Assembly: GCA_034044135.1 (NCBI GenBank)
Contig: CP139021.1
Span: 1,875,635 to 1,939,634, forward strand
Length of the DNA: 64,000 nt
Source: Flammeovirgaceae bacterium SG7u.111
Lineage (GTDB): Bacteria; Bacteroidota; Bacteroidia; Cytophagales; Flammeovirgaceae
Direction of reading: 5' to 3'
Positions 7,142-39,727 of this stretch are shown one piece after another (positions within the stretch are counted from its first letter, which is position 1; every line of letters begins with the position of its first letter). Position numbers and translations under genes: made by a program. The notes beneath the pieces were generated by a model. The model was not told where the DNA came from. It was given only the letters and a program-made list of their open reading frames with translations, and did no database searches.

Positions 7142-7233
7142 TAATTTTCTTTGGTTAATTCGGACTGTTTTATTCAGGCTTGTTCGTTAAGATATATGAT
7201 TTACACAAGTTAAAGATTAGTGTTTACACTAAA

Positions 7234-7780
7234 TTAGTTTCTAACCTTGCATACTGATCTTTGTTTTTTAAGTTGGTTTAAAAATACATTCCGATAATAC
7301 ACTCTCCAAATTTCATTGCCCACAGGTTCTACTCCCACAAATTTTCCTTTCAATGCCGCGGTTAGATAAACCTAATAATATGACTTCCATCGGATGGAAC
7401 CATTTTGAGTTACTTTAAGGGTTTTCCAGTCATGGTAATAGTGAATAGATGACAATAGACTTTATACCCCATTAGGAACTTACCTTTGTAGTCAGCTGAC
7501 CAAACTTCATTACACTCTTTAGGGTCGAAAATAGGGAAGAGTGGCTTAAGCCTTCTCATTCTTTTTTTAATAGATACTAACCCATTTTCTTCGAACCGTG
7601 TATTAATTTGTAGGCAGTAGGCCTAGAGCTTTCGAAGCTTTTACATAAACCTGTTATGGAGTATTTTCCTGTTCTCCATTCACAGATAAATTCAATTTTT
7701 TGTTCTATAGTTGTTGTTTCTTTCCAAGGTATGTCCATCCAATTTTTATGGATTTCTACGTCTAAAAAAGTGTAAAGCAT
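7234..7780 (-). pseudogene. Decayed IS481-family transposase
   Basis: The N-terminal piece (7577-7780) reads WKETTTIEQKIEFICEW and SFESSRPTAYKLI, the HTH start of IS481 transposases. After frame breaks, further pieces match the same family: PIFDPKECNEVWSADYKGKF with the first catalytic Asp around 7470-7540, and a C-terminal piece with AALKGKFVGVEPVG and VYYRNVFLNQL ending at a TAA (7234-7236). About half the expected gene is missing, including most of the DDE core. Terminal inverted repeats are not obvious. It is an inactive remnant inside the cassette-like region. Confidence 0.75.
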
Positions 7781-7805
7781 GTCCCTTTACCGTACCCTAA
7801 TTATC

Positions 7806-7886
7806 GCTAACGTTAAATGTATGAATCGTAGCTTTGGTCTGTGCGTTTGCCTTGCATGGCTATGCATTATACATATTGTGTGCGCC
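7806..7886 (-). repeat. attC-like imperfect palindrome, site 4 (short)
   Basis: Outer boxes are CGCTAACG (7806-7813) and ATTGTGTGCGCC (7875-7886). Inner boxes ATGTATGAATCGTAGC and GCTATGCATTATACAT are complementary at 12 of 16 positions. At 81 bp it is the most compact site and has no long central hairpin. Confidence 0.55.
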
Positions 7887-7996
7887 TTGAATGGTGAATA
7901 TAGCTCATGAACTTGAGTGTTCCAAAGGCACGCCCAGTGAGGCGCACCGTAGGCTTATGGGGCATGCCTAGTGGCTCTCGACCGCCTACTCAATTG
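7876..7996. repeat. ~120 bp dispersed repeat, copy 3
   Basis: Near-identical to copy 1, including the left-hand GCTATGCATTATACAT extension. It differs at CTCGACCGCC near its right end and stops 7 bp after the stop of the next minus-strand gene. Confidence 0.85.
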
Positions 7997-8003
7997 TGTG
8001 TAG

Positions 8004-8519
8004 TTATTTTTTTATTTCATTTTTTAAGTCCAACAATTTCAATTCTTTGTGGTAGTTCTCAATTCTTGAGTGTGCATTTCCGTCAATTATTAAAATGACA
8101 ATTAACATTGAAATGGTTGTAACACTAATTGCTCTCCAAGTTGGTGTATTAATAAATAGAATTAATAATGCTGCTACGATAATTAATATTGGAACTACTT
8201 TAAATACAAATATAAATTGCTTTAAAGTGCTTTCAGAACGTTCAATTTCTGACTGATAAAAGGCAGTTTCATCAGTATTAAAATCCTTATCAAATTGTTT
8301 AACCCTTTGAATATTGGTGTAATTAGTACCGCTGCCAATTATTAATAGTAATATACCTGCTACTAACGTTGGAATGATATAAGCCTTTGCTAAATCTGTT
8401 TTTCCTAATTGCCAAAATCCAATACTTGCGATTAAAAAGCCAATCGCGAAGAAAATAAAGAAACGTGTTGAGAATACTTCGGCTTTTGCCCATTCGATTG
8501 CTAGCTTTAATACGTTCAT
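8004..8519 (-). CDS. Hypothetical membrane protein, array cargo
   Basis: A 171-residue protein with two pairs of hydrophobic helices: residues 18-62 (FFIFFAIGFLIASIGFW, then IIPTLVAGILLLIIGSG) and residues 100-150 (FVFKVVPILIIVAALLILF, then ISMLIVILIIDGN). A charged segment of about 40 residues between the pairs and a charged C-terminal helix are presumably cytosolic. I recognise no named family. Similar small four-helix proteins are common passengers in Bacteroidota accessory DNA. It is flanked by dispersed-repeat copy 3 at its 3' end and an unexplained TAACGTTT/AAACGTTA inverted repeat upstream (8543-8632). Confidence 0.75.
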   Translation of the reverse strand: MNVLKLAIEWAKAEVFSTRFFIFFAIGFLIASIGFWQLGKTDLAKAYIIPTLVAGILLLIIGSGTNYTNIQRVKQFDKDFNTDETAFYQSEIERSESTLKQFIFVFKVVPILIIVAALLILFINTPTWRAISVTTISMLIVILIIDGNAHSRIENYHKELKLLDLKNEIKK

Positions 8520-8670
8520 AGTTTCATTTTTTAATTCTGACTAACGTTTTTTTAAATCATCACAATATCAGGCGTTTACAAATCTTTCAAATTACTCCAA
8601 ATTTTCATTAAAAATCTAGCTAAACGTTAGCTTCGGAAATTAATCCAGATTTCCGGGATATGGGGAATTA

Positions 8671-8800
8671 CACACAACGGTTTTGTGTATGATTTGTGGG
8701 ACTTAGAATCCGTAGGATTTTCAGTTGCAGCAAATCAGTTGTTTAAAGATATAAATGTAAGTAGGAGGTTAGTATGGGTTATACATGTTGTTGTGCAACG
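8671..8800 (-). repeat. attC-like imperfect palindrome, site 5
   Basis: Outer boxes are CACACAACGG (8671-8680) and TTGTTGTGCAACG (8788-8800), mutually complementary as CACAAC/GTTGTG. Inner boxes GTGTATGATTTGTGGG and GGGTTATACAT are less well paired than in the other sites. It lies just after the DUF1801-CDGSH gene. Confidence 0.5.
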
Positions 8801-19658: not shown

Positions 19659-22061
19659 TTGAAACAGTACACCAAACTAGCTGTGCTCCTTTGTATATTC
19701 ATCTGTTCCTCCAAGTTACTTTGGAGTCAAGGCACAGGTAATTCACGTGTGTTTGGAGAGGTCTCTTCAACTTCTGGGGAGCCTCTGACAGGTGCAACAG
19801 TCTTGCTCAAAGGCACGGACAAAGGTGTGGTCACGGATGTGAAGGGGCAGTTTGAGATAAAAGGTGTTGGTGCTGGAAGTTATGTCCTTCAAGTGAGTTT
19901 TGTAGGCTTTGAAAGCCAAGAGAAACCAGTTCAAGTGAAGAAATCACAAAGCTTGGAGATAAACATTAAGCTGCAAGAAACATCAATGGAGCTTGAAGGG
20001 GCGGAAGTTGTGGGGAAATCCATGGTGCGGGAAGTGAGTGAGCAAGCTTTTGCCGTTACGGCTATTTCTACCAAAGAACTTTACAACAGTACTGCCAATG
20101 TAAAGGGCGTATTAAACCGCGTTCCGGGTGTCAGGATTTTGGAAGAAGGAGGAGTTGGTTCGGATATCAGTTTTACCCTCAACGGGTTTTCTGGCGATCA
20201 GGTGAAGTTCTTTATGGACGGCATCCCCATGGATAATTTTGGCTCATCTTTGAACCTGAGCAATATCCCGGTGAATATGATCGACCGGGTGGAGGTCTAT
20301 AAAGGCGTAGTGCCCGTTTGGTTGGGGACGGATGCACTTGGTGGGGCGGTGAATATCATTACCAGCTCAAAGCAAAACTTTTTGGATGCCTCTTATTCGA
20401 TCGGCTCGTTCAACACGCACCGAGTTTCGCTAAACGGCGCATATACGAACCCCCAAAATGGGTTTATTGTAAAGGGAAATATCAATTACAATTACTCTGA
20501 CAATAACTACAAAGTTTGGGTGCCGATAGTGGAGGGAAACAATGTAGTGGATACTGCCGATGTGGAGCGCTTCCATGATCGATACCGCTCGGGCATGATC
20601 AAATTGGAAACTGGCTTAGTGAACAAAACCTTTGCCGACAAGCTCCTTATCGGAATCATTGCCTCTACTGATGACAAGCAAGTGCAGCATGGGGCGACCA
20701 TGAGTTCTGTATATGGCGGCATCCTGCGCAATAGCCAATCCGTGATTCCGAGCTTAAACTACAGCAAGGAAAACCTTTTTGTAGAGGGCTTGAATGTGAG
20801 TTTCCACGGCCTTTACAACGCTACTAAAAATGAAGTGATAGATACGCTGAGCGGGGTAAGCTATAATTGGTTGGGGGAAGCAACGGTAACGCCCGGCTCT
20901 GATGACGGGGAATTGTATCGCACGTTCACCACCATGAACGACGATGAATTTAATAGCCAGTTCAACGTGGGTTACACTATTAGCCCTCAACATTCTCTTG
21001 CCTTCAACTATTCTTATTCTTATTTCCACCGAGAAGCTTTTGATACTGAGCATCCTGATAACATTGAAAACCAATTTCCTAAATTGCTCCACAAACAGGT
21101 GGTAGGCTTGGCTTACAAATTCGATCTGAACCAAAAATGGAGCACAACGCTTTTTGGGAAGTATTACTTTTTGAAGGCGAAGACGAGCAAAGAATTTGAT
21201 TTTGCACAGGAAACCCAGCGAACCGAAGCATTTGAAACCAACAAAAACAATTTTGGATACGGACTTGCCACTTCTTATTTTTTACTTCCAAAGCTGCAAT
21301 TCAAAGCTTCTTACGAGCATACGTATCGCATGCCTTGGGCAACGGAAATATTTGGGAATGGCTTGTTTGTAACGGCTAACCCTGACTTGGGACCAGAGCA
21401 AAGTGATAATATGAATTTGGGTTTGGCATATCGCTTTAAGCTAAATGCTGATCACCAGTTCACCCTCGAAAACAGCTATATCTACCGCAAGGCAAATGAC
21501 CTTATTTACCAAGTGGTGAAAGTTTCCAGCCCCGAGACCTATTATGAGAATTTGGCGGAAACCCGCACGCTCGGCGTGGAAGGAAGCGTCAATTACCAAT
21601 GGAAACAAACGCTGCGCATTGGGGCAAATATCACTTTCCAAGACATTACAGACCAAGCCGATTTTGTATATAATGAATCATACACCAACACGGGTTACCA
21701 AAAGAACTTCCAAAAAGGGTACAGACTTCCGAATACTCCGTACTTTTTTGGAAATGCCAATGCGGGGCTTTCTTTCAAAAATGTGCTTTCTGCAGGCTCG
21801 CTGTTGAACTTCAACTACTATTTCAATTTTGTGGAACAGTACTTTTTGAGCTGGGTCGAACTGGGCTCTAAGGATACCAAAAAAGTAATTCCCCAGCAAA
21901 CTTCACACGATTTGGAAGTATCCTACAGCTTACTTGACGGGAAATATAACCTTTCGCTAGAATGCCGAAACCTGGCCGATGCAAGGCTTTATGATAAATA
22001 TTATTTACAAAAACCTGGACGCGCTTTTTATCTCAAGGTGAGGTATGTGCTAGGTCAATAA
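19659..22061 (+). CDS. TonB-dependent outer-membrane receptor with carboxypeptidase-like N-domain
   Basis: An 800-residue receptor starting at TTG. No ATG lies closer, and a good signal peptide (AVLLCIFICSSKLLWSQ) follows immediately. Residues 28-110 are a carboxypeptidase-regulatory-like domain (GEVSSTSGEPLTGATVLLKG). Residues 120-235 form the plug (NRVPGVRILEEGGVG, DRVEVYKGVVPVWLGTDALG). The rest is the 22-strand barrel, ending in an aromatic strand with FYLKVRYVL. With the next two genes, a DUF4374 lipoprotein and a PepSY membrane protein, it makes the standard Bacteroidota siderophore or haem-type iron-uptake trio. The exact ligand is unknown. It is probably iron-repressed, but no Fur box was identified. 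Confidence 0.95.
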   Translation: MKQYTKLAVLLCIFICSSKLLWSQGTGNSRVFGEVSSTSGEPLTGATVLLKGTDKGVVTDVKGQFEIKGVGAGSYVLQVSFVGFESQEKPVQVKKSQSLEINIKLQETSMELEGAEVVGKSMVREVSEQAFAVTAISTKELYNSTANVKGVLNRVPGVRILEEGGVGSDISFTLNGFSGDQVKFFMDGIPMDNFGSSLNLSNIPVNMIDRVEVYKGVVPVWLGTDALGGAVNIITSSKQNFLDASYSIGSFNTHRVSLNGAYTNPQNGFIVKGNINYNYSDNNYKVWVPIVEGNNVVDTADVERFHDRYRSGMIKLETGLVNKTFADKLLIGIIASTDDKQVQHGATMSSVYGGILRNSQSVIPSLNYSKENLFVEGLNVSFHGLYNATKNEVIDTLSGVSYNWLGEATVTPGSDDGELYRTFTTMNDDEFNSQFNVGYTISPQHSLAFNYSYSYFHREAFDTEHPDNIENQFPKLLHKQVVGLAYKFDLNQKWSTTLFGKYYFLKAKTSKEFDFAQETQRTEAFETNKNNFGYGLATSYFLLPKLQFKASYEHTYRMPWATEIFGNGLFVTANPDLGPEQSDNMNLGLAYRFKLNADHQFTLENSYIYRKANDLIYQVVKVSSPETYYENLAETRTLGVEGSVNYQWKQTLRIGANITFQDITDQADFVYNESYTNTGYQKNFQKGYRLPNTPYFFGNANAGLSFKNVLSAGSLLNFNYYFNFVEQYFLSWVELGSKDTKKVIPQQTSHDLEVSYSLLDGKYNLSLECRNLADARLYDKYYLQKPGRAFYLKVRYVLGQ

Positions 22062-22103
22062 TCAATGATAGTTTTACAACTTTTAAATAAACTTTTAAAA
22101 AAA

Positions 22104-23330
22104 ATGACTTCATCTAGAAAATTCACAAAGTTTACATTTTTGTTTCTAAGCATTATTGCTTCCATTTTTATTGCAGGTTGTAGTGATGAGGACAACGACG
22201 ACCCTATTGATCCATCTACAGAAGAAAAACCTTTCGTAGTTTCTTTGGCAATACAAGGTAGCGACAATTCTTTCACCTACTACACGGTTCCTTTCGCAGA
22301 TGTGATGACGGGTTCTTTATCAGCCGTTGGTCAAGGAGTGGAGCAGCCAGGTTATTATGACTTCACCCAAATAGATGAAACGATATACAGCATTGGCGGC
22401 CTAGATGACGTCAACGTAGTGGGCATCACTCAAAATGAAGATGGTACACTTGCTCAAATTGGTGATATTTCGTTCGATAACAGCCTTTCTGATATTGTGA
22501 AAGGTGACGACAACACGCTTGTGGCGTTGGAATTTTCATCTTCTTCAGACCAAGTAAAATTCCATACGATTGATGTGAACACGGTTGCTGTAACCAATAC
22601 GGTGCAGCACCCAGTTTCTGATCTTACTAGTCTTTCGGCTCCTTCTTACTCAGGGATGCGCGTGAGTGGCGATCACTTATTTTTGAGCTATTATATAAGC
22701 GATCCTTCTACTTGGGCAACAGATTATACCGATACTGCTTGGGTAGCTGTGTATTCGTACCCTGAGTTGGAATTCCAAAAAGTAATTACCGATACCCGTA
22801 CGGGTTCTATTGGTGGGTTCAACGTAAAAGCAGGTTTGATCAAAGATACTAATGGCGATATCTATGCGCTTTCCCACTCTAACCCAGCAAACGGCTATAG
22901 TCAAACAACAAAAGGGGGAGCAATCTTGAAGATCAACAGCGGGGAAACAACGTTTGACCAAGATTATTTCTTCGATATTGAAGCGGCAACAGGAGGTTTC
23001 AATACTGCTCACTTAAAATACTTAGGCAATGGTAAAGCTTTTGCCGAAATCAACATGGCTGCAAATGCCGAACAAGAAAGATGGTCTGACGGACCTTTGC
23101 AATCTGCGGTGGTTGATCTTTACAACAAAACGGTAACGTTTATCGAGGGAGTGCCAGAGCACGCTGGCAATGGCAGAAGGTTGGCATGTCTTTACGACGA
23201 CGGTTTCATTTACCTTTGCATCCCTGAAGATTCGGGCATATTTGTGTACAAAATGGATATTGAAAACCATACTGCAACCAAAGGCGCTGAAGTAGAGGCT
23301 AACTTTGTGGCAGGGTTCTTCAAATTTTAA
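22104..23330 (+). CDS. DUF4374 lipoprotein of iron-uptake trio
   Basis: 408 residues from the ATG at 22104. An earlier in-frame ATG at 22065 would put extra residues before the signal. The N-terminus has a lipoprotein signal (FLFLSIIASIFIAGCSDED, lipobox IAGC). The rest forms a beta-propeller-like DUF4374 domain with repeated strands. Such proteins sit between TonB receptors and PepSY proteins in siderophore-uptake loci and probably hold or process the ferric ligand in the periplasm. It is 42 bp after the receptor stop and in the same operon. A hairpin follows the stop. Confidence 0.9.
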   Translation: MTSSRKFTKFTFLFLSIIASIFIAGCSDEDNDDPIDPSTEEKPFVVSLAIQGSDNSFTYYTVPFADVMTGSLSAVGQGVEQPGYYDFTQIDETIYSIGGLDDVNVVGITQNEDGTLAQIGDISFDNSLSDIVKGDDNTLVALEFSSSSDQVKFHTIDVNTVAVTNTVQHPVSDLTSLSAPSYSGMRVSGDHLFLSYYISDPSTWATDYTDTAWVAVYSYPELEFQKVITDTRTGSIGGFNVKAGLIKDTNGDIYALSHSNPANGYSQTTKGGAILKINSGETTFDQDYFFDIEAATGGFNTAHLKYLGNGKAFAEINMAANAEQERWSDGPLQSAVVDLYNKTVTFIEGVPEHAGNGRRLACLYDDGFIYLCIPEDSGIFVYKMDIENHTATKGAEVEANFVAGFFKF

Positions 23331-23346
23331 TTTCCCTTCTTAACTT

Positions 23347-23387
23347 GCACTACTGGCTTTATAAAAGCTGGTAGTGCTGTTTTTAAC
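23347..23387 (+). terminator. Intercistronic hairpin (attenuator/terminator)
   Basis: GCACTACTGGCTTT-ATA-AAAGCTGGTAGTGC, followed by TGTTTTTAAC, lies between the DUF4374 and PepSY genes. It could be a partial terminator lowering expression of the third gene, or an RNA-stability element. Confidence 0.65.
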
Positions 23388-23412
23388 TTCTGCGTTGAAC
23401 AACTTCCCATAC

Positions 23413-24663
23413 ATGAAAAACAAATCCAACAAAAGCAAAGTAAGGCAACTCAATGACTGGCTTCACCTCTGGTTAGGCTTAGTTTCAGGAATTGTCGTTT
23501 TCATTGTAAGTATTACTGGATGTTTTTATGCTTTTCAGCAAGAAATAAAAGATGCTGCAGAGTCATGGCGATTTGTGGAAGCTCAAGAAAACCCATTTGT
23601 GCCGCCTAGCCAATTGCTAGATACGGCGCAGAGCTACATGGGAGATAGCAAACCAACAGGATTGACCTATAGCAATGGAGAAGGAGCTGCGGCAGTGGGC
23701 TTTTCTTCTTTTGAAAAAGGGAAACGAAGCTTTTCAGTGGTGTTTATGAACCCTTATACAGGGGCGTTTTTGAAGAAGCAACAGACGATAGGAGAAGGAG
23801 AGTTTGATTTTTTTCGCTTCATTATCGATGGACACCGTGCCCTTTGGCTGCCTTATGAAATAGGCCGTCCGATAGTTGGGGTTTGTACCCTCATTTTTTT
23901 ATTCCTATTGTTCTCAGGCTTGGTGATGTGGTGGCCCAAAAACTTCAAGAAAGCCAATTTCAACAAGAGTTTTAAGATAAAATGGAATGGCAGTTTCAAA
24001 AGAGTCAATTATGATCTACATAATGTATTGGGCTTTTACACCCTTGTGCTAGCTTTTATACTTGGGGTGACAGGGTTGGTTTGGAGCTTTGAATGGTTTG
24101 AAGATTCGTTGTATTACATCACTTCTGGAGGAGAAGAAAAACCGGGGCATCATCACCCACATTCGGATATTATAAAAGCAGGTGAATTAGCTAATGACAG
24201 TATTTCGATGCTTGATAGAGCTTGGTACATAACTATCGCGCAGGAGCAAAATGCCCAAGGCTTTTATATGACGCCCATACTCGAAGACCCAGACGATGCC
24301 ATCGAGATCATTGCCTATCAGGACAAGGGTTCGTGGTACAACAGGAATGAATATTACTACGATCAATACACCTTGGAGCGGTTTAGGGTGCAAGGCGACC
24401 GCTTTTCGGAAGCTAGCTTTGCAGACCAACTGACTATGCTCAATTACGATATCCATATTGGTGCTGCGTTAGGCTTGTCGGGTAAAATCTTAGCCTTTTT
24501 CATTAGCCTCGTTTGCGCCAGCCTTCCTATTACAGGCTTGATGGTTTGGCTGAACAAAAAGAAAAAAGGCAAGAAAAAGGAGGGCGACGCCAGTTTGAGT
24601 TCGAATAAAAAAGAGAGGCAGTCCAATGCTCAAAGAGCTGCCAAAACTGCTCAGGAAGTTTAA
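23413..24663 (+). CDS. PepSY-associated membrane protein, iron reductase-like
   Basis: A 416-residue inner-membrane protein starting at 23413 (MKNKSNKSKVRQLNDWLHLW). It shows the PepSY-TM layout: helix 1 (LGLVSGIVVFIVSITGCFYAF), a periplasmic PepSY segment, helices 2 and 3 near residues 155-225 (GVCTLIFLFLLFSGLVMWWP, FYTLVLAFILGVTGLVWSF), a second periplasmic part with a His-rich stretch (PGHHHPHSD), and a last helix before a long basic tail. Conserved His residues in the helices may bind haem. Members act as ferric-siderophore reductases at the inner membrane. It is the third gene of the receptor operon. Confidence 0.9.
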   Translation: MKNKSNKSKVRQLNDWLHLWLGLVSGIVVFIVSITGCFYAFQQEIKDAAESWRFVEAQENPFVPPSQLLDTAQSYMGDSKPTGLTYSNGEGAAAVGFSSFEKGKRSFSVVFMNPYTGAFLKKQQTIGEGEFDFFRFIIDGHRALWLPYEIGRPIVGVCTLIFLFLLFSGLVMWWPKNFKKANFNKSFKIKWNGSFKRVNYDLHNVLGFYTLVLAFILGVTGLVWSFEWFEDSLYYITSGGEEKPGHHHPHSDIIKAGELANDSISMLDRAWYITIAQEQNAQGFYMTPILEDPDDAIEIIAYQDKGSWYNRNEYYYDQYTLERFRVQGDRFSEASFADQLTMLNYDIHIGAALGLSGKILAFFISLVCASLPITGLMVWLNKKKKGKKKEGDASLSSNKKERQSNAQRAAKTAQEV

Positions 24664-25426: not shown

Positions 25427-28333
25427 ATGAGAAGTTATACAATTCTCTTTTTCTTTTTTTGTAATGGCTTTTGCTTGTCTTTATTTGCCCAAGCGCCAGA
25501 TAATGTTGCCATTGCCGAGCAAATACAAAAATTGAAAAAAGATGCAAGAGGACCTTACAAAGATATCCGTTGGTTTTGCAAAGATGGGTCAATACTGATG
25601 CCTACCGAAAGATGTCCCGAAAAAGGGGGCGTGCAAAGAGCGAGGTATAAAGACGAGGTAGTTGCGCTGGCAAAGAACCATCATATTTTTATTGGGCAAA
25701 TACTTTCCACTACCTTGGTGGATGATTTTTGGGATGCAGCGCATAACCAATCGAGGTTGAAGCAGTACATGTTGGAAAAATACCTCCGCACGGTAGACAA
25801 CGGTTGGGTGCTTCAAAAAGGGCAATATTACCGTGGTGCTATTCAGATTGAAGATGAAGAAGAGTGGGGGAAAGAGTTTTTCACCTGGTTATTGAAAGAT
25901 AGTGTCAGTTTAGTGGAGAATTATTTTTTAGTGAGGCAAGCGCTAAAAGACGTGCCGCATTTTGGTGATAACAACAAGGCACAATTAATAAGAAGCCAAT
26001 CCAAAATACTTGCCGATACTTTCCCTGCTTTCATGAATTTACGAATTAAAATCCATGGACAACCCGATGCTTCGGATATAACCAGTGTGGAAAAGTTTAA
26101 AGCAAGCCATAGCCAGCAACTTTCCCCTAAGCTCACCAAGCAATTTGATGGACTCATTGATAATTTGAAAAGCTACTATGAATTGTCTGATGTGGCGGCG
26201 CTGAAAAGTGCTACTAACAAACTATCCCCCACTTCAGCCTTGAAAACTCAGGTAAATAGCTATTTATCAGCGCAGTATACGAGTGGGTCTGAAGAGGGAC
26301 TTATCCAAGCTACCGCACAGTTGATGTGGGAAATTCGGGTGAATTTGCCACAAGAAAAATCCAAGGACAAATTAGCTTTGCTCGATATTTCCAATTTATT
26401 GGAAACCTATCTTCTTAAGCAATTATCGAAGTGGAAATGCGAGAACTTGCAGGAATTGCTACATCGTATTCAGTATTTGTCCTTGGCAAGTGCGGGCGCG
26501 GGCTTTGTGGAAAAGTGGGAGTGGGAGAAAATAGAAGCCAAGCTTCAATTGGAAGAACAAAATGAGATGAGCTTAGGTGATTTGACCGACTATATGAACC
26601 GAGGCAGGAGTCAATTAGAGTGGGGAATCGGGATGAACAAGGCTGTTTTTCAGGAGACGATCAACTTGTTTTATGGCTTTGAAAAAATGGCTTCTGGCTT
26701 TATAGACGATAGAATAAGGGCTTCGGTACTGTTGGATTTAGGCAACAGCATTGGGCAATTGGGCGATATTATAGCCAAGGAATCTTCATTGACAAATCAA
26801 GTGTTGGGCATTGCCAACCAAAGCCATATTAGGGGACTTAATCCTGGCTTTTCTAAAGGAGAGCTGCAAGTAGTTGAAGGAGTGGCGGATGAAATAGAGG
26901 TTGCAGCTAATAAGATTTACATTTTCGAAAGAGCTCCTGCCGACCTGAAACCCGTTGCCGGGATCGCCACGGTTTCGGAAGGAAACATGGTTTCGCACGT
27001 ACAATTATTAGCCAGAAACTTGGGAATTCCCAATGCCATCGTATCGGATGTCAACTTGAAAGATTTAATGCAATTTTCGGGGAAGCAGGTATTTTATGCG
27101 GTTTCTAGCAAAGGAACGGTCATTATGAAAGATACCAGTGAAATGACCGAAGTGGAAAAGAAGTTGTTTGCAGGCAAAAGGATAATGGAGGAAAAAATAC
27201 GTGTGCCGATAGATAAAATGCAACTCGGCATCACAACACTTCCCAACCTCAGAACCTTGAAAGCCAATGACTCGGGGATAATTTGTGGACCGAAAGCAGC
27301 TAATTTGGGCCAGCTAAAGTACGCCTTTCCCGATAATGTAGTCGAAGGATTTGTAATCCCTTTTGGCGTTTTCAGAGAGCACATGGATCAGAAATTACCC
27401 GATTCGGAGCAAACCTATTGGGAGTTCCTTACGCAAACTTTTGAAGAAGCGGAGAGTATGGCTGCCAACGGAATTGACGAAGCCGAAATAGAGGAGTTTC
27501 AATTGAAACAATTGGCGCAACTACGGGAAGACATAAGTAAAATCACGTTTTTACCTTCATTTCTAGAAAATTTAGAAACTAGTTTCCAAGAAATATTGGG
27601 CAAGCCCATGGGCAAAATAGCGGTGTTCCTGAGAAGCGATACCAACATGGAAGACCTCAAAGATTTTACCGGGGCAGGGCTTAACCTTACCATTTTTAAT
27701 GCCGCAGCGAAAGACAAAATATTGCAAGGGATCAAAAGTGTTTGGGCTTCGCCTTATACCGAGCGTAGTTTCAAATGGCGTCAAAAGTTTCTGTTAAACC
27801 CCGAAAATGTGTATCCATCTATCTTAATTATTCCGAGTGTAGATGTAAATTACTCGGGGGTGCTGATAACCAAAGGGGTGTCAAATGGAAACACAGAAGA
27901 TTTGACCATTGCCTTTAGTCGGGGAGCTGGCGGTGCGGTAGATGGACAAACTTCTGAAACCTATTTGGTGAAAAGTGATGGGGAAAATAGCTTGCTGAGC
28001 CCTGCCAGAGAAACCTATTATAATCAATTGCCTACAAGCGGTGGAGTGCTGAAAGGGAAAGCTAAATTCAATAAACCGATTCTTCAACCAGAAAATATAG
28101 AAGAGATAAGAAAACTTACTCAGCAACTGAAGGAGGTTATGCCAACTACGCCCGGCATTGAATCGGATGGTCCGTTTGATGTAGAATTAGGCTTTTTGGA
28201 TAATAAGCTATGGCTTTTTCAGGTAAGACCTTTTGTAGAAAACAAAAAAGCGGTCAGCTCCGATTTTCTACAATCTATTGACCCTGAAGAAGTAGGGACT
28301 GATAAAACGGTTTCATTGCTCATGAAGCTTTAA
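25427..28333 (+). CDS. Exported PEP/pyruvate-dikinase-like protein with glucan-water-dikinase domain order
   Basis: 968 residues. The N-terminus has a Sec signal (YTILFFFFCNGFCLSLFAQ), so the protein should leave the cytoplasm. Residues 30-480 are mostly helical and not recognised. Residues 500-560 are a phosphohistidine swivel domain with the His in MVSHVQLLARNLGIPNAIV (His524). Residues 620-960 form an ATP-grasp domain (CGPKAANLGQLK, FLRSDTNMEDLKDFTGAG near 735, VWASPYTERSFKWRQ, and a final DVELGFLDNKLWLFQVRPF). PEP synthase and PPDK have the ATP domain first. Here the His domain comes before it, as in plant GWD/PWD, and the TNMEDL motif also recalls those enzymes. A phosphoryl-transfer role outside the cytoplasm is puzzling and unproven. 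Confidence 0.85.
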   Translation: MRSYTILFFFFCNGFCLSLFAQAPDNVAIAEQIQKLKKDARGPYKDIRWFCKDGSILMPTERCPEKGGVQRARYKDEVVALAKNHHIFIGQILSTTLVDDFWDAAHNQSRLKQYMLEKYLRTVDNGWVLQKGQYYRGAIQIEDEEEWGKEFFTWLLKDSVSLVENYFLVRQALKDVPHFGDNNKAQLIRSQSKILADTFPAFMNLRIKIHGQPDASDITSVEKFKASHSQQLSPKLTKQFDGLIDNLKSYYELSDVAALKSATNKLSPTSALKTQVNSYLSAQYTSGSEEGLIQATAQLMWEIRVNLPQEKSKDKLALLDISNLLETYLLKQLSKWKCENLQELLHRIQYLSLASAGAGFVEKWEWEKIEAKLQLEEQNEMSLGDLTDYMNRGRSQLEWGIGMNKAVFQETINLFYGFEKMASGFIDDRIRASVLLDLGNSIGQLGDIIAKESSLTNQVLGIANQSHIRGLNPGFSKGELQVVEGVADEIEVAANKIYIFERAPADLKPVAGIATVSEGNMVSHVQLLARNLGIPNAIVSDVNLKDLMQFSGKQVFYAVSSKGTVIMKDTSEMTEVEKKLFAGKRIMEEKIRVPIDKMQLGITTLPNLRTLKANDSGIICGPKAANLGQLKYAFPDNVVEGFVIPFGVFREHMDQKLPDSEQTYWEFLTQTFEEAESMAANGIDEAEIEEFQLKQLAQLREDISKITFLPSFLENLETSFQEILGKPMGKIAVFLRSDTNMEDLKDFTGAGLNLTIFNAAAKDKILQGIKSVWASPYTERSFKWRQKFLLNPENVYPSILIIPSVDVNYSGVLITKGVSNGNTEDLTIAFSRGAGGAVDGQTSETYLVKSDGENSLLSPARETYYNQLPTSGGVLKGKAKFNKPILQPENIEEIRKLTQQLKEVMPTTPGIESDGPFDVELGFLDNKLWLFQVRPFVENKKAVSSDFLQSIDPEEVGTDKTVSLLMKL

Positions 28334-28520: not shown

Positions 28521-29786
28521 ATGAAAATATCTATTCGTAAAATGATGTTGTTAGGATCGGTTTTAGCCCTGATTATGTCATTTACACTTGCCCCATATCC
28601 CATAGACGGATACGAATACACAGGTATTAGGCGGCTACTGCGCTTAGAGCTGATAATGAAGGATGAGCTAAAAGACGCCAAGCCTCCGCTAGGTGCGCAA
28701 AAATCAATGGCCGATATTAAGTTAAACTTGGTCGGCAGCCGAGGTGATAGTTTAGATGTTTTGCCTGCTGTTGATCCTGCATTTCAAAAAGCAGTCAGTG
28801 GTGTTTTTTCTGGATTGGATGCGAGCTATTCGCTTGCCATAACAGAGATCACGAAAGACAAACCTCTGCGGTTTATGAAGTTGCAAGAGAAAAGGGGCTA
28901 TCAGCCGGGCAGTGTAGGTAAATTAGCGGTATTGACAGGTTTCTTTCATCAAATAGCCAAGATTTACCCCAAGAGCTACGCAAGCAGGATAGAGCTGATG
29001 AAAACCAAGCAAGTACGAGGGGGAAGATGGGTGCTCACCGATTCGCATACCATACCTGTGTATGATATTGAAACTAAAAAACTAACCAAACGAATAGCGA
29101 AAGAAGACGATGTTTTCAGCTTATTCGAGTGGATAGACCACATGCTTTCGGTCAGTAACAATGGAGCTGCCAGCGTGGTTTGGAGAGAAGTAATGCTCAT
29201 GGATGCCTTTGGCGAGAAATATCCCGAACTGACGGATGACGAAGCCAACGAATATTTTAAAAATACTCCTAAAAAAGACCTTTCAGATATTGCCACAAGG
29301 GTGGTGAATCAACCTTTGCGTGACTTATGTATTGACGAGCAGGAATGGAAGCTCGGCAGCTTTTTTACTTATGGCGCAAGCAATATTGTACCCGATAAAG
29401 GTGGGAGTATTGGGACTGTTATCGGGTTAATGAAATATTTGGTAGCTGTTGAGCGAGGAAAGGTAATTGACCAAGAATCCAGTTTAGAGATAAAACGCCT
29501 TATGTACATGACCGATAGAAGGATACGGTACGCGTCTGCCCCAGCGCTGAGTACTGCGGCAGTGTATTTTAAGTCGGGAAGCTTGTACCAATGCAGGGAA
29601 GAAGAAGGCTATAACTGCCAAAAATACATGGGCAATAAGTCCAATTTTATGAATTCGGTCGCGATTATCGAACATGAGAATGGTACTACTTATTTGGTGT
29701 GTTTGATGTCGAATGTGCTCAAGAGAAACTCTAGCAGCGATCATTTGGCGCTGGCAACTTCTATTGATCGTATCATGCAAAAATAA
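28521..29786 (+). CDS. SxxK serine hydrolase (class A beta-lactamase/PBP-like)
   Basis: 421 residues with a signal-like N-terminus (KMMLLGSVLALIMSFTLA). The penicillin-recognising triad is present: GSVGK (SxxK, near residue 131), SNN in LSVSNNGAAS (near 212, in the place of SDN) and KSG in YFKSGSLY (near 350). The domain is longer than class A beta-lactamases, with an extra segment after residue 170 (ETKKLTKRIAKED). It could cut or transfer peptidoglycan peptides or hydrolyse other amides or esters. It lies 187 bp after the dikinase-like gene on the same strand and ends 8 bp from the convergent transporter gene. Confidence 0.85.
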   Translation: MKISIRKMMLLGSVLALIMSFTLAPYPIDGYEYTGIRRLLRLELIMKDELKDAKPPLGAQKSMADIKLNLVGSRGDSLDVLPAVDPAFQKAVSGVFSGLDASYSLAITEITKDKPLRFMKLQEKRGYQPGSVGKLAVLTGFFHQIAKIYPKSYASRIELMKTKQVRGGRWVLTDSHTIPVYDIETKKLTKRIAKEDDVFSLFEWIDHMLSVSNNGAASVVWREVMLMDAFGEKYPELTDDEANEYFKNTPKKDLSDIATRVVNQPLRDLCIDEQEWKLGSFFTYGASNIVPDKGGSIGTVIGLMKYLVAVERGKVIDQESSLEIKRLMYMTDRRIRYASAPALSTAAVYFKSGSLYQCREEEGYNCQKYMGNKSNFMNSVAIIEHENGTTYLVCLMSNVLKRNSSSDHLALATSIDRIMQK

Positions 29787-29793
29787 GCTGGTT

Positions 29794-32610
29794 TTATTCT
29801 TTTATTTGTAGCGCTTTTGAAGCGAATGTCGCAATTTTAATGTTTGGAGCATTTAGGTATTGCTCAACTAAAGGATGAAATTTTTTATCTTTTAATTGGG
29901 CAATCAAATGTAAGACCGCCAATGAAATTCGCTGGTCGCTCATGTTTAGAAGAATGGTAAAGCACTCAAGGTCATTCGGGATTTTGATGTGCAATGCTTT
30001 TAATGATTCTTCCGTAGGATGATCTAAAAGATTGACTTCAATAATGGGTATGAGTACTTTTTTGAGCTCGAAATGCAACAATATTTCTAAGTACTGGATA
30101 GCGGTGACTCTTATTTCTTTTTTGTTATTGGTAATTCCTTTGTAGGTTGAAAGCACATCGTCAGGGGGGTATTTTAACCCTAATAACAAAAAGATTCTTT
30201 CCAAGTCGGCGTCTAGCCTTCTCTCCAACAATTCAATCAAACTCTGCCTAGCATCGTATTGCGCATGTTCCTTTCCTATACTGCTAATTTTTTTGGATTG
30301 GGCGTACATGGAGCTTAGTACATCTACATAGACTTTAGATTCCTCAATAATTCTGGATATGATTTTTTTATGATAAAATTGTAAATGACCATTTTGTAAT
30401 TTCAAGTGGCGCAAAGCATTTATGGCTTCCTTTTTAAACGCATGATCGGGCACTTCTAAAAAATAGAAGAGGCAATCTACAGCCTTTTGGTAATTAAATT
30501 GTTTGATGATACTCGGTATGTACCTGAGCGAGGCATCAAATTCCTTTTTCTCTACTACCAATTTTTTGAGGCGATCAATAATAGCCAAGCCGTAGTTAAC
30601 TAGTGCTTTTTGCGCAGTCTCTCGGTACGTTTTATCTTCTAAACACAGTACAAGGGTTTCTATAAAAATAGGATTTAGGCTATACCCAGCACTAGTGATA
30701 GCCTGTTTTTTTATGGTTATATTTTCATCTTTCATCTTTTCCCCAATAAAATAATGGAAGAAAACGATGTTGGCGTGGCCTATGACCTCAAGCAAATTGA
30801 TTGTTTCATTGAGCTTCTGCTCTCTCTCCAATTTTACTAATCCATCAATCTTTTTCTGGATAGTTTGCTCTAGTTGAAACTGCTCCCTAAGGGTCGGGTT
30901 ATCCCGCGTTTCGGTAGCCAAACTGATGAGTGCGGCATTTAATACCCTTTCGTCAGGGTCATTTAGGTAGGTTGAAAATGTTTGGGTAAAGTCATTTCCC
31001 GAATGCTCGATGATATACTCAAATGCGGCAATTCGCACTTCTGCGCTTTCATCCGATACGAAAGGCTCAATTTCTTGTAAGATGATTTTTTGTTTGCAAA
31101 AGTATAAGGTGTTAATAACCTTGGCTCTTACCGAGGCTGAAGGGTGGGTCAGCAAGTTTTTTATGGGATCGAAGAAAACAACTACATTGAGGCTTGAAAT
31201 CTTTTGAAGTATAAAACAGATTTGACTTTCCGTGCCTGTTTGTAATACTTTCAATATACCACTGTTCACCGAAGCAATAGGGATAACAGGCTGTGCTTTT
31301 TTCTTTTCGGCAGGTTCAAAAACAGCTAAGTTACTTTTGAATGCAGCTATGTATTCTTTTCTAACAAAATAGACAAGTGTTCCCCAGCCTATAATAAAGA
31401 GGATAATAATAAGGTTGATCGTCTGGGTAGAGAGGTTAAACCCTCTAATGACAAAAATAAGAATGATACCTGCCAGCCCCGTTGCGATGCTATCGACTAC
31501 TACATCTATGAATATCTTTGTTTTGTTTTTTATCTCAAGGGGGATCGGTAGTGCTAGCAATTCGGTTGCCGATTTATTGACCGATTGTTTCAAACTGCCA
31601 TCGATTGTTTTTAACAAAATAACAATCCCTAGCTCGGGAAATACAACCAGAAGGAGGGTAGCTAATAATATGCCTAAAGGCAAGAATAAAAGCGAACTTC
31701 CCACGCCCCAGATACCTACCAAACGGTTGGTCAAAAATACCTGAACAAAGAGTGATAATAAGTTGAGGTTAGATGCCCACAACCCAAAGAAAGCCGTCAG
31801 TTCATCAGGGTCTATAAGATGGCGAGAGGCAATATCATTAAATTGATAATCAACGAGTTTGGCTACGATGATGCTCGCCCCAATAATACCTGCTAAGTAG
31901 GTCAAATGCTTGGAGCTTAGCACGAGCTTTAGGGGATTGGTAACCCTTCCTACTTCTCTTTTCAATCGCCTAAACTCAGATAATTTATGGATGTTTTTAA
32001 GCCATATTTTTCTTAGCAAGAAAATATTGATACCCAAGAAGAAAGTAGCTACTAAAAAGAGGTTTTCGTTACCTATAAATGGAGCTAGGATATTGGTGAG
32101 ATACCCGCCAAATATTCCACCTGAAATTGCCCCGACACCCACTACGCTAAATAGCCTTTTGGCATCCCTTATATTAAAAACCAAATTGGCTAAAACCCAA
32201 AATTGGGAGGCGGTCAGCACACCAAAAATGGAAACCCAAATAAACATAAAATAAAGGATCCACCCGTACAGGAAGTCTAGGGCAAATAGCAATCGGATGA
32301 GCAATAAAAAAAGGATAGAGATCCAGAGCGTTTTTTCGATAATGCCTTTTAGCAAGCCTTTTTTTAACCATTTGGAATAAAAAACGGAGGTTAGAATAGC
32401 TGCTAAAGCCACCATTATATAGGCTAAGGGGAGTTCTTGAACACCTAAGCTTGAGATAAAAAGTGCATTGATAGTTGGTTTTACTATCAGTAGGGTAGAT
32501 ATTAATAAAAAAATGAACAGTTGCATAAATGCAACTGTTTCAAGTTCCCCGTCTCTAACATTAAATAATTTTTTAAATGCAATTTTAATAGCATTTTCAA
32601 CTGCAAACAT
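29794..32610 (-). CDS. Npt1/Npt2-like nucleotide-transporter domain with HEAT-repeat tail
   Basis: 938 residues from the ATG at 32610. An upstream in-frame ATG would overlap the preceding gene. Residues 30-450 carry about twelve membrane helices resembling ADP/ATP translocases of the Npt/Tlc type (LLIVKPTINALFISSLGV, then YIMVALAAILTSVFYSKWL). Residues 490-938 are soluble, with repeated paired helices of HEAT type (SASVRAKVINTLYFC, SAEVRIAAFEYII, DERVLNAALISLA). Free-living bacteria do not obviously need ATP import, so the transported solute is uncertain. The gene starts 5 bp after the stop of the upstream SxxK hydrolase gene, forming a two-gene operon. Confidence 0.85.
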   Translation of the reverse strand: MFAVENAIKIAFKKLFNVRDGELETVAFMQLFIFLLISTLLIVKPTINALFISSLGVQELPLAYIMVALAAILTSVFYSKWLKKGLLKGIIEKTLWISILFLLLIRLLFALDFLYGWILYFMFIWVSIFGVLTASQFWVLANLVFNIRDAKRLFSVVGVGAISGGIFGGYLTNILAPFIGNENLFLVATFFLGINIFLLRKIWLKNIHKLSEFRRLKREVGRVTNPLKLVLSSKHLTYLAGIIGASIIVAKLVDYQFNDIASRHLIDPDELTAFFGLWASNLNLLSLFVQVFLTNRLVGIWGVGSSLLFLPLGILLATLLLVVFPELGIVILLKTIDGSLKQSVNKSATELLALPIPLEIKNKTKIFIDVVVDSIATGLAGIILIFVIRGFNLSTQTINLIIILFIIGWGTLVYFVRKEYIAAFKSNLAVFEPAEKKKAQPVIPIASVNSGILKVLQTGTESQICFILQKISSLNVVVFFDPIKNLLTHPSASVRAKVINTLYFCKQKIILQEIEPFVSDESAEVRIAAFEYIIEHSGNDFTQTFSTYLNDPDERVLNAALISLATETRDNPTLREQFQLEQTIQKKIDGLVKLEREQKLNETINLLEVIGHANIVFFHYFIGEKMKDENITIKKQAITSAGYSLNPIFIETLVLCLEDKTYRETAQKALVNYGLAIIDRLKKLVVEKKEFDASLRYIPSIIKQFNYQKAVDCLFYFLEVPDHAFKKEAINALRHLKLQNGHLQFYHKKIISRIIEESKVYVDVLSSMYAQSKKISSIGKEHAQYDARQSLIELLERRLDADLERIFLLLGLKYPPDDVLSTYKGITNNKKEIRVTAIQYLEILLHFELKKVLIPIIEVNLLDHPTEESLKALHIKIPNDLECFTILLNMSDQRISLAVLHLIAQLKDKKFHPLVEQYLNAPNIKIATFASKALQIKE

Positions 32611-32615
32611 CCATT

Positions 32616-33551
32616 TTAATTTATATGTAATACTTCTTCTACAGGAAGTATGAGCTGTCTGATGATGCTTTCCCCTTCTGGGTCTTCGATTAGCGCTACT
32701 AAAATATAGTGCCTGTCCGACATATCCCAGACTAAAACAGAATCGGAGTGAAAGTTTTTCCACGAGCCAGATTTCCTAAAAATCCGAGCATTGGGCACGA
32801 TCTGATCAAGCGTATGCACAAACTTATGATGAAGTGCTGGATCTTCCATGATATCAAGCATTTGTTTTGAGCGCTCATAGGAAACGAGCCTACCCGAAAC
32901 CATCAGGTAATAGAACCGGCTCACCTGATAGGCTGTAGCCGCATGGCTCAAACCTAGGATAGGATCAGGCTTTCGTGCGCCCGTTTTAGCGTATCTTTTG
33001 CCTACCCACAATCCGCCATTGTACTTCTCTGAGTATAATTCATATTGCGGGTCTCTGAGTACCGAAGCTATTTTATCGTAGCCCAACAAGTCAATCATGC
33101 GGGTGGAGGCGGCGTTGTCCGATCTGCTGATCATTAACTTTAAGTCTTCGTCAATAGCAGGAGTTTCTTCAATTTCGCCTTTTTCAAGGGCATCCATGGC
33201 GGTGAGCAATACGGCAATTTTGGGCAAGCTAGCCGCATACATCATTTCGTTATCATTTATACCTGCATATTTGATCTGCTCAGGATCTCTTAGATCGACT
33301 ACGCCAATGGCCATTTTTTTTTGGGCAATCAATTTCCTCCATTTTTCATTGGTTTTGAGTTTTGTCAATAGTTCTTTTTGCACAGAATCATTTCTATACA
33401 TATTGAGCTTAGACGTAGATTGATCGGGGAGATCTAGGGGTAACGAATTTTGGTTTTGCATTGAAATGCCTTCTATTGCCTCCCCAGCTTCTTGTCCATG
33501 AGCACAGGTCGTTAACAATAAAAGAAAGATAATTTTTATAGAACTTTTCAT
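32616..33551 (-). CDS. SxxK serine hydrolase (class A beta-lactamase-related)
   Basis: 311 residues with a Sec signal (IIFLLLLTTCAHGQ). The triad is Ser108-Lys111 in SLPK, SDN (residues 144-146, in SRSDNAAST) and KSG in FRKSGSW (near 266). Between SDN and KSG there is HAATAYQVSRFYYLM, typical of beta-lactamase-related exported proteins in Bacteroidota. A true beta-lactamase would usually have Glu166 in an ExxLN loop, which I do not see, so peptidase or esterase activity is more likely. It is first in an operon with the Npt-HEAT transporter. Another SxxK protein lies on the other side of that transporter. Confidence 0.85.
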   Translation of the reverse strand: MKSSIKIIFLLLLTTCAHGQEAGEAIEGISMQNQNSLPLDLPDQSTSKLNMYRNDSVQKELLTKLKTNEKWRKLIAQKKMAIGVVDLRDPEQIKYAGINDNEMMYAASLPKIAVLLTAMDALEKGEIEETPAIDEDLKLMISRSDNAASTRMIDLLGYDKIASVLRDPQYELYSEKYNGGLWVGKRYAKTGARKPDPILGLSHAATAYQVSRFYYLMVSGRLVSYERSKQMLDIMEDPALHHKFVHTLDQIVPNARIFRKSGSWKNFHSDSVLVWDMSDRHYILVALIEDPEGESIIRQLILPVEEVLHIN

Positions 33552-37063: not shown

Positions 37064-39727
37064 ATGATACGAAGTTTTGTACTCATAGCTATTACTATTT
37101 TTTCTTTCTCACTTTCCCAAGCACAATCTGTAGAAATCACCCGCTGGATGGGGCTTCAGGGCTATCCGTATGGGGTAGAGCATGTCGCTATTTCTAGCGA
37201 TGGGCGCTACTTTGCCGTACTGCCCAAGCAGCAGAGCAACACGGTTGATCTGTACGATGAGAACTACCAAAAGGTATGGTCGCACCGAGGAGTACTACGA
37301 GGGAAATCGAACGTGGCAGCTTTTAGTCCTGATGGCAAGTACTTGTTTTTCTCCAACTACGGAAAGGGCACGGATATAGGCGTGCTAAATGTACAAACCC
37401 GCAAAATAGTTAGGAAACTACGGAAGCACATGGGCTTGGTAACGAGCTTAAGCTTTAGTGCCAACGGTAAGTACATGGTGTCGGCTGGTGAAGATGGCTT
37501 TATAAGGGTGTGGGAATACACCAACGAATCTTTCTTCGAGATCCAGTCTTTCAAAAGCAATTCGGGGGCAATCCGAAATGTTGCTTTTGCCGATAACGGG
37601 CAACTCTTTGCCGCAGCTAACTCTAACCAAACCGTAACGATTTTTTCTTTAGAAGGAAAACAGTTTAAAGCTTCGAGTGCACTCAAGCTCAATGGGGTTC
37701 AGGCAAAGGAAATTGTGTTCGGTAAGAATGCCAGCCAGCTAGCCATGGTACAGTCCGACGGCTCGGTGCAGGTGTTCAACCGGTCTGGCTATGACTACCA
37801 GTTTGCTTTTAAGCTACCGACAGGCTACGGAACGACAAGCCTTGCTTTCAGCCCAAACGGTGATTATTTGCTAGTGGCAGGCAGCGATAGATCGGTGAAA
37901 ATGTATGGAATTACTAAGGAAAGGGCACTTTTGAGCGAAACGCTTTGGGACCATGAAAAAGCAGTGGCGGATATTGCCATTTCGGGTAATGGAAAAATGA
38001 TGCTGACTGCTGGGGCGGAAGGTGTGGCAAATATTTGGAAGGTAGAAGGGATGAAAGGTAGGGGCGAAATCCTAGGGATTTCGGGAGGAACAAGTAGCCG
38101 ACCTTCGGGCTTGCCTCCAGTGCTTTCTATTGAGGAAATCAGTTTTTCGGAGTCTGTGCTCGATGCCGAAGAATCGGCTGAGCTAAAGGTTACGGTGAAA
38201 AACTCGGGACCTGGAGAGGCTCAAAATGTACGTTTGTTGCTCAGAGGAAGTCTTGGTGAGGTATTGATTCCGAAGGAAACGACTTTTCCTTCTATAGCAG
38301 CTAAAGGAGGTTTGGAAACGCTTACCGTACGCATCAGTGGCTCGGCAAATTTACCAACTTCTTCGGCATTTATAGATATAGCAGTTGAACAAGCCGATTT
38401 TGGTATTCGCTTGCAGGGCAGAAGGCTTACGTTCAATACGAGGCACAGCCCTAAGCCCAGGCTTACACTGGCTAAATTTGCTGTGTTGGAACATGTATCG
38501 GCTTCACCCAATAATCAGGTGGATTTGAATGAGATGATAGATGTGAAGTTTGTGGTGCAAAACGTGGGTGAAGGAACTGCCCGGGATGTGGAGTTGAACT
38601 TGACAAACAACCAAAAAGGCGTGCTGTACCTAGGCGTGGAAGAGCAAGGCCAGCTTACAAGGCAAAACCCTCGGATTTCTGAAATTCCTTCGGGTAAATA
38701 TGTGACGGTGGTGTATCGCTATTTTGTGAACAGTGAGTTTGCTGGAACGGACTTGTTATTTGACCTCAATGGTAAAGAACGGTTGGGAAGCTTTGGTTTC
38801 AATGAACGCAAGTCGGTAGCCATAAACAAGACCCTGCGAGAGGAGGGACAAATAGTGGTGATGGATGGGAATACACCAGATTATCGCCCTGGCCAAGTGG
38901 AAGATGTGCCTGACCTGTATGTGGATGTTAGGCAAAATATTCCGCAGACCCGCAAGGTGAACAACGATGCTGTAGCGGTGGTGATAGGAAATCAGCATTA
39001 CCGAAACAGAGATGTTCCTTCGGTAGATTTTGCCATAGAAGATGTCCAAACAATGAAGGAATACTTGGTGAAAACTTTTGGTTTTAAAGAGGGAAATATC
39101 TTGTATTATAAAGATGCTACGCAAGCAGATTTTAATGCGCTTTTTGGTACGCCTACGAACCCAAGAGGACGGTTGTATAATTATGTAAAAGCGGGAATAT
39201 CCGATGTATTTGTCTATTACAGTGGGCACGGCGCGCCAGATCCAGAAAGCAAAGAAGCCTTCTTTGTACCTGTAGATTGCGATCCTTCGGTAGTGGCGCT
39301 CAACGGCTACGGAGTGAATACCTTTTACAATAATATTTCCCAGATCCCTTACCGCTCGCTTACAGTGGTGGTGGATGCTTGTTTTAGTGGAAGTTCAGCG
39401 AAAGGAATGCTCTTAAAGAATATTTCACCTGTGTTCATCCAGCCTAAAATGAAGGTAATTAACGATGAAAAAGCAATTGTATTCACTTCGGCAGGGGGCG
39501 AACAAGTCTCCTCTTGGTATCCCGAAAAAAGACATTCCCTTTTCACTTATTATTTTCTAAAAGGCTTGCAGGGCGAAGCAAACACCAACAAAGATAGGCA
39601 ATTGACCTTGGCAGAACTAGAGAGTTATATCCAAAGCCAAGTGCCGTACATGGCGCGTAGGCTCAATAATAGGGAGCAATCTCCTGAGGTTTTTGGAGAG
39701 CAGGAAAAAGTGTTGGTCGATTATTAA
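37064..39727 (+). CDS. Exported WD40-caspase (C14) protein with CARDB-like spacers
   Basis: 887 residues with a Sec signal (LIAITIFSFSLSQAQ). Residues 30-345 form a WD40 propeller (repeats such as AFSPDGKYLFFSNY, SFSANGKYMVSAGEDGFIRVWEY). Residues 355-460 and 470-590 are two immunoglobulin-like CARDB-type domains (LKVTVKNSGPGEAQNVRLLL, FVVQNVGEGTARDVELNL). Residues 640-885 are a caspase-fold peptidase with His722 in YYSGHG and Cys773 in VVVDACFSGS, both catalytic residues intact. A short EF-hand-like loop (NTNKDRQLTLAE) follows. It would be a cysteine peptidase working outside the cytoplasm. The target is unknown. A strong terminator follows. Confidence 0.92.
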   Translation: MIRSFVLIAITIFSFSLSQAQSVEITRWMGLQGYPYGVEHVAISSDGRYFAVLPKQQSNTVDLYDENYQKVWSHRGVLRGKSNVAAFSPDGKYLFFSNYGKGTDIGVLNVQTRKIVRKLRKHMGLVTSLSFSANGKYMVSAGEDGFIRVWEYTNESFFEIQSFKSNSGAIRNVAFADNGQLFAAANSNQTVTIFSLEGKQFKASSALKLNGVQAKEIVFGKNASQLAMVQSDGSVQVFNRSGYDYQFAFKLPTGYGTTSLAFSPNGDYLLVAGSDRSVKMYGITKERALLSETLWDHEKAVADIAISGNGKMMLTAGAEGVANIWKVEGMKGRGEILGISGGTSSRPSGLPPVLSIEEISFSESVLDAEESAELKVTVKNSGPGEAQNVRLLLRGSLGEVLIPKETTFPSIAAKGGLETLTVRISGSANLPTSSAFIDIAVEQADFGIRLQGRRLTFNTRHSPKPRLTLAKFAVLEHVSASPNNQVDLNEMIDVKFVVQNVGEGTARDVELNLTNNQKGVLYLGVEEQGQLTRQNPRISEIPSGKYVTVVYRYFVNSEFAGTDLLFDLNGKERLGSFGFNERKSVAINKTLREEGQIVVMDGNTPDYRPGQVEDVPDLYVDVRQNIPQTRKVNNDAVAVVIGNQHYRNRDVPSVDFAIEDVQTMKEYLVKTFGFKEGNILYYKDATQADFNALFGTPTNPRGRLYNYVKAGISDVFVYYSGHGAPDPESKEAFFVPVDCDPSVVALNGYGVNTFYNNISQIPYRSLTVVVDACFSGSSAKGMLLKNISPVFIQPKMKVINDEKAIVFTSAGGEQVSSWYPEKRHSLFTYYFLKGLQGEANTNKDRQLTLAELESYIQSQVPYMARRLNNREQSPEVFGEQEKVLVDY

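Follow-up and report, generated by a model that had tools for sequence, protein, structure and literature searches.

A predicted exported dikinase-like protein with intact catalytic residues, encoded in a conserved four-gene locus of Bacteroidota

Phosphohistidine dikinases are described as ATP-fuelled enzymes of the cell interior, and we know of no phosphoryl donor outside the inner membrane; a narrow phrase search of the literature found no paper on a periplasmic, exported or secreted dikinase. In plant glucan water dikinases (GWD), the phosphohistidine domain comes first and is followed by the ATP-binding domain. For rifampin phosphotransferase (RPH), K22, R117, T136 and E297 were tested in the ATP domain and H825 is the phosphohistidine; the K22A mutant was inactive, R117A and T136V stopped short of the second step, and E297A carried that step out unimpaired (PMC4844700). 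Fusions of an NTT (ATP/ADP carrier-like) membrane domain with HEAT repeats are widespread in free-living bacteria, and their function was open in 2017 (Major, Embley and Williams, PMC5381601). K155, E245, E385 and K527 are needed for ATP/ADP exchange by the Arabidopsis carrier (PMC3306366, PMC10654386).

The window is the whole stretch of DNA analysed, 64,000 nucleotides of the Flammeovirgaceae bacterium SG7u.111 genome. Within it, gene D occupies exactly the open reading frame first noted in the initial annotation, and its parts were assigned as follows.

25427-28333, forward strand: gene D, predicted exported dikinase-like protein of 968 aa (open reading frame, ATG start)
25427-25489, forward strand: residues 1-21 of D, predicted signal peptide, with Gln22 as the expected first mature residue (aligned Gln22, hydrophobic core)
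25490-26827, forward strand: N-terminal region of D (about residues 22-467), candidate acceptor-binding part (Pfam, AlphaFold2, Foldseek, conservation)
26828-27136, forward strand: phosphohistidine domain of D (about residues 468-570; PEP-utilizers model, PEP synthase swivel-domain profile)
26996-26998, forward strand: His524 codon of D, predicted phosphohistidine, EGNMVSHVQLLARNL (invariant in 81/81 sequences, PEP synthase alignment)
27248-28261, forward strand: ATP-binding domain of D (about residues 608-945; Pfam, invariance, Foldseek, RPH mutants)

Pfam placed PPDK_N (PF01326) at residues 620-944 (E=4.8e-25, 89 bits vs a cut-off of 27), and this match together with the intact catalytic residues bears out the annotation of D as dikinase-like. 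The phosphohistidine motif, EGNMVSHVQLLARNLGIPN, lies N-terminal to PPDK_N, and since His524 precedes K623-R934, the phosphohistidine domain does stand before the ATP domain as annotated. The PEP-utilizers model matched D weakly (residues 507-536, E=0.011, under cut-off) and matched 13/13 orthologues (best E=0.0014), and a profile alignment set the His524 motif against the SH motif conserved in PEP synthase. TNMEDL is located at 739-744 and VWASPYT at 772-778. K623, R736, T755, D918, E920, Q932 and R934 of the ATP domain, as well as His524, were invariant in the 13 orthologues, a set obtained by tblastn or profile search with no motif bias. His524 and the ATP-domain positions checked were also invariant in 81/81 sequences of a larger set, for which the best 80 of 483 GTDB loci were fetched by the patterns RSDTNMED and GPKAANL[GA][QE], so that the invariance of K623 and R736 is partly built in, and that of H524, E920, Q932 and R934 is unaffected. 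Profile alignments equated RPH K22, R117, T136, E297 and H825 with D K623, R736, T755, E920 and H524, the K22 to K623 correspondence being made via the GPKAANL/GGKGANL motif. An AlphaFold2 model of mature D was produced with 39 orthologues (pLDDT 78.7, pTM 0.73), and Foldseek against the PDB matched its ATP domain to RPH (5hv6, TM 0.84 by target length, 18-19% identity), followed by PEP synthase and PPDK; a viral structure search added nothing. The catalytic residues of D are thus intact as judged from the alignments, and D is likely to be catalytically active. The loss of all ATP-binding residues, which the initial annotation had named as evidence against its reading, was not seen, every one of them being present on checking. 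A non-catalytic binding or scaffold protein with a retained dikinase fold, which the same annotation had offered, would suit a GWD-like architecture fit for polymer binding and a location where ATP is not known to occur, but it is quite improbable, the phosphohistidine and the ATP-handling residues listed above being strictly invariant down to 42% identity.

By sequence and fold, D is a member of the dikinase superfamily that falls outside both PEP synthase/PPDK and RPH. It resembles Listeria RPH (5hv6/5fbs) in the fold of the ATP domain, in all tested ATP-handling residues and in having a small histidine domain, but differs in domain order (the catalytic His is central in D and C-terminal in RPH), in being without a rifampin-binding domain and in its predicted export, and the full-length RPH model NF041857, whose cut-off is 999 bits, scored 44. 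PEP synthase and PPDK are closest by sequence and share the ATP-binding domain and the SH phosphohistidine motif; D differs from them in having the first two domains the other way round, in an N-terminus of about 450 residues, in its predicted export, and in the PEP/pyruvate domain PF02896, for which Pfam gave no match in D. PF02896 had no match anywhere in the genome either, as opposed to 14/14 control genomes with a match, and, the genome being 98% complete, this absence is good but not absolute evidence; the genome is apparently without PEP synthase, PPDK and PTS enzyme I. Assignment of D as a PEP synthase, the activity that the initial annotation had set against its own reading, was therefore ruled out. 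The GWD resemblance that had been proposed held for domain order, and kinship beyond that was not supported. D shares with plant GWD/PWD the succession of N-terminal extension, phosphohistidine domain and ATP-binding domain, but is bacterial and predicted to be exported, its phosphohistidine domain model is below threshold, and no carbohydrate-binding module (CBM) was found in Pfam scans of D and its orthologues, where a divergent one is possible. GWD1_pHisD (PF22973) matched 6/13 orthologues (best E=0.012, weaker than PEP-utilizers) and left D itself unmatched, and the NCBIfam and PDB matches of D were to PEP synthase and rifampin phosphotransferase. With domain order as the one shared feature, membership of GWD was not accepted.

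The N-terminus of D, MRSYTILFFFFCNGFCLSLFAQ, is Sec-signal-like. A signal-like start was present in 12/12 orthologues from the protein search, the hydrophobic core in all sequences checked, and Gln22 in 77/79 aligned sequences with a letter at that position; an AxA-Q cleavage-site regular expression proved too strict (49/78), and the aligned Gln22 count was used instead. Export was judged by eye and from the alignment. By the Bacteroidetes Q-rule, signal peptidase I cleavage leaves an N-terminal Gln in most substrates (PMC5837995), and the retention of Gln22 directly after the signal peptide supports export of D. Export, as first annotated, is thus a strong inference and nearly certain on these sequence features, and the location outside the inner membrane is probably the periplasm. 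That D is instead cytosolic, with a membrane anchor or a misassigned start codon behind its signal-like start, would place it with ATP, its expected donor, but is very hard to reconcile with a conserved signal and Gln22, a start position shared among orthologues, and predicted export of both enzymes encoded beside D. Export of a family that retains all its catalytic residues would imply phosphoryl-transfer chemistry in a compartment for which we know of no donor.

The AlphaFold2 model shows the N-terminal region as largely helical, with confidence low in places and pLDDT under 50 over mature-chain residues 69-121. The absence of a known family over these approximately 450 residues, as first noted, stands: neither Pfam nor Foldseek against the PDB gave a family or structural match, and no recognisable acceptor site was found in the region. 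Cys51 and Cys63 are near-invariant (80/81 and 79/81, respectively), a pair that would fit a disulphide and adds to the case for export, as does the predicted export of two proteins encoded alongside.

A protein search of 395 genomes of the phylum gave 12 full-length orthologues of D at 43-58% identity, and D was present in 13/395 genomes; a GTDB-wide scan gave 483 loci related to D, and the analysis covered the best 80 of them. Given the 12 orthologues and the 483 related GTDB loci, D is far from a chance reading frame. No D was found in the 17 same-family genomes searched, and D occurs in Flavobacteriaceae, Saprospiraceae and other classes of the phylum, a distribution that suggests transfer or repeated loss. 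Plasmid spread was considered and dropped, all relatives returned by tblastn being distant ones of the PEP synthase or RPH kind.

The 7.7 Mb genome has just two PF01326 proteins, D and a second exported dikinase-like protein of 649 aa (loci L002/L040; L040 7223-9172, forward strand; G000:C1 about 3995223-3997172), which is 29% identical to D over the matched part and keeps TPLSHINLLAKNRG and the ATP-domain motifs. This protein falls with a family of about 630 aa (L041 6820-8697, L040 7223-9172) that resembles D in having a signal peptide, the ATP residues and a phosphohistidine motif (TPLSHxxLL) N-terminal to the ATP domain, but has a shorter N-terminus and is without the gene partners of D described below. 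In some loci the family of about 630 aa adjoins a DUF4956 membrane protein gene (L041 6266-6823 with 6820-8697; L042 6206-6766 with 6771-8666; L043 6121-6678 with 6675-8552).

D is part of a fixed, previously unnamed four-gene locus across many Bacteroidota, the other members of which are as follows in the window.

28521-29786, forward strand: gene C, predicted exported SxxK serine enzyme, class A beta-lactamase/PBP-A fold (PF13354, motifs, AlphaFold2, Foldseek)
29794-32763, reverse strand: gene B, membrane protein with an NTT (ATP/ADP carrier-like) domain and HEAT repeats (TLC and HEAT Pfam)
32616-33551, reverse strand: gene A, predicted exported SxxK serine enzyme of the Beta-lactamase2 family (PF13354, 71 bits)

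Among 42 representative loci, D was counted in 42, C in 40, A in 39 and B in 37, and the next neighbour family in 7, which ruled out a cassette larger than four genes. Among the best 80 of the 483 loci, C adjoined D in 79 (the lone exception being a contig end), and the complete set of D, C, B and A was found in 64, several of the remainder being interrupted by contig ends, and B lying farther downstream or past the flank in some Maribacter loci. The gap between D and C was 1 nt in the median across loci and 187 nt in the window. Distances among D sequences correlated with those of C at 0.95, of A at 0.88 and of B at 0.67, as expected for joint inheritance, and orthologous B (at least 770 bits) occurred in 11/13 genomes with D vs 0/382 without D among the 395 genomes of the phylum (Fisher p=1e-19, without phylogeny correction), shared descent inflating both the distance and the co-occurrence statistics. 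In one genome (G213), B lies about 150 kb away from D, and two genomes (G218, G233) carry D, C and A without orthologous B; in G218 an ordinary MFS gene adjoins D, a single case. D, C and A very probably constitute one functional unit, and that this unit includes B is probable. An alpha-amylase/branching-enzyme-like gene near D in three loci was considered and set aside as not recurrent.

C and A both carry PF13354-type active sites that appear intact. The SxxK, SxN and KSG motifs of C were invariant in 78/78 sequences, and SLPK, SxN and KSG of A in 66/66. With the AlphaFold2 model of C (pLDDT 89.4) as query, Foldseek matched both PBP-A and class A beta-lactamases at 10-15% identity and a TM of about 0.7, normalised by target length. 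Both enzymes thus resemble PBP-A/class A beta-lactamases in keeping SxxK, SxN and KSG, whereas C is set apart by its low identity to them and by a conserved N-terminal motif, YPIDGYxxTGIxRL. SxxK enzymes can also be acyltransferases, and this counts for a reading in which D is a PigC-type ligase: its phosphohistidine chemistry would prime a small molecule to be condensed, leaving no phosphate behind on the product, whose acyl groups would then be trimmed or transferred by C and A. The models of PigC (prodigiosin ligase, 62.8 bits) and RedH (undecylprodigiosin ligase, 47.2 bits) do match the ATP domain of D, but these matches are limited to that shared domain and score below the PEP synthase models, and no biosynthetic genes recur near D in the 42 representative loci; we regard a ligase of this type as improbable.

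The TLC domain match in B scored 26 bits vs a Pfam cut-off of 21, profile matches to solved carriers were obtained (9j3j, E=2e-16; 9j3n, E=2e-14), and the true start of the gene is likely 32610. By these profile matches, B is a true homologue of the solved ATP/ADP carriers, and the presence of such a homologue beside a predicted exported ATP enzyme is suggestive. The Arabidopsis residues were mapped via the 9j3j alignment (chain index equal to residue number minus 84, which fits all four letters), the first stretch of which is weak and makes the K155 position the least certain. At the mapped positions, 66 orthologues of B have Tyr/Phe for K155, Ala/Ser for E245, Asp for E385 and Thr for K527; three of the four exchange charges are replaced, and only E385 is kept, as Asp. 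Because three of the four key residues are lost, classical ATP/ADP exchange by B is not supported, and plain ATP supply, attractive from the TLC match, is weakened. The cargo of B may be another nucleotide, the acceptor or the product, and delivery of the phosphoryl donor by B is a doubtful proposition. B is like described NTT-HEAT transporters in joining an NTT membrane domain to HEAT repeats (PMC5381601), and unlike the others its branch is linked to D, C and A. The locus gives NTT-HEAT transporters a defined set of genetic partners, and the locus and its carrier homologue, neither of them in the initial annotation, bear on the puzzle of a dikinase where ATP is absent.

Another Bacteroidota NTT-HEAT branch shows similar losses of charged residues and, in several loci (L168-L178), adjoins an Omp85-domain protein and a lipoprotein, which suggests a different envelope role.

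The reading we prefer, and hold with rather more confidence than doubt, is that D is a competent periplasmic dikinase that acts with C and A on one envelope substrate, and that B moves a small molecule. By analogy with described dikinases, the beta-phosphate of ATP or of another nucleoside triphosphate would be passed to His524 in the ATP-binding domain, and the small histidine domain would then swivel and hand the phosphate to an acceptor held at the N-terminal helical region. D would act with the secreted SxxK enzymes C and A on one substrate of the cell envelope, and B would move the phosphoryl donor, the acceptor or the product for this pathway. An envelope substrate for D specifically has, in our estimate, an even chance. 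The likelihoods given in words for export, activity, functional unit, substrate and donor are judgements, not computed values.

A donor other than a nucleoside triphosphate, namely pyrophosphate, PEP, polyphosphate or a lipid-linked phosphate of the envelope, would solve the donor problem without B as an ATP carrier, and related dikinases run reversibly from PEP. We consider it unlikely, the ATP-domain residues of D being those that position ATP in RPH (PMC4844700), and PEP in particular is opposed by the absence of the PEP-binding domain from D and the genome. Returning to D as a periplasmic dikinase supplied with a nucleoside triphosphate, a more specific form is tentatively conceivable, in which the locus is a self-contained extracytoplasmic phosphorylation module: B would supply the nucleoside triphosphate or retrieve the spent nucleotide, D would phosphorylate an envelope polymer, and C and A would process that polymer. 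Such a module, if true, would be the first function for NTT-HEAT transporters of free-living bacteria. The substrate and donor of D and the role of the NTT-HEAT protein are testable in culturable Maribacter, Arenibacter, Cellulophaga and Muricauda.

A scan for promoters and terminators gave no signal above shuffles. Upstream of D in the window, a TonB-dependent receptor, a DUF4374 protein and a PepSY membrane protein are encoded in a row (19659-24663, forward strand), probably for the uptake of a metal or siderophore, and these genes are not kept beside D in orthologous loci. Elsewhere in the window, an exported-looking protein that combines WD40 repeats with a caspase domain at its C-terminus (37064-39727, forward strand) and a subtilase carrying a sorting domain for type IX secretion (48312-51218, reverse strand) were observed. 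Two members of GH3, a family familiar chiefly from the auxin-amido synthetases of plants, are encoded at 55366-56922 and 58754-60250 (both forward strand).
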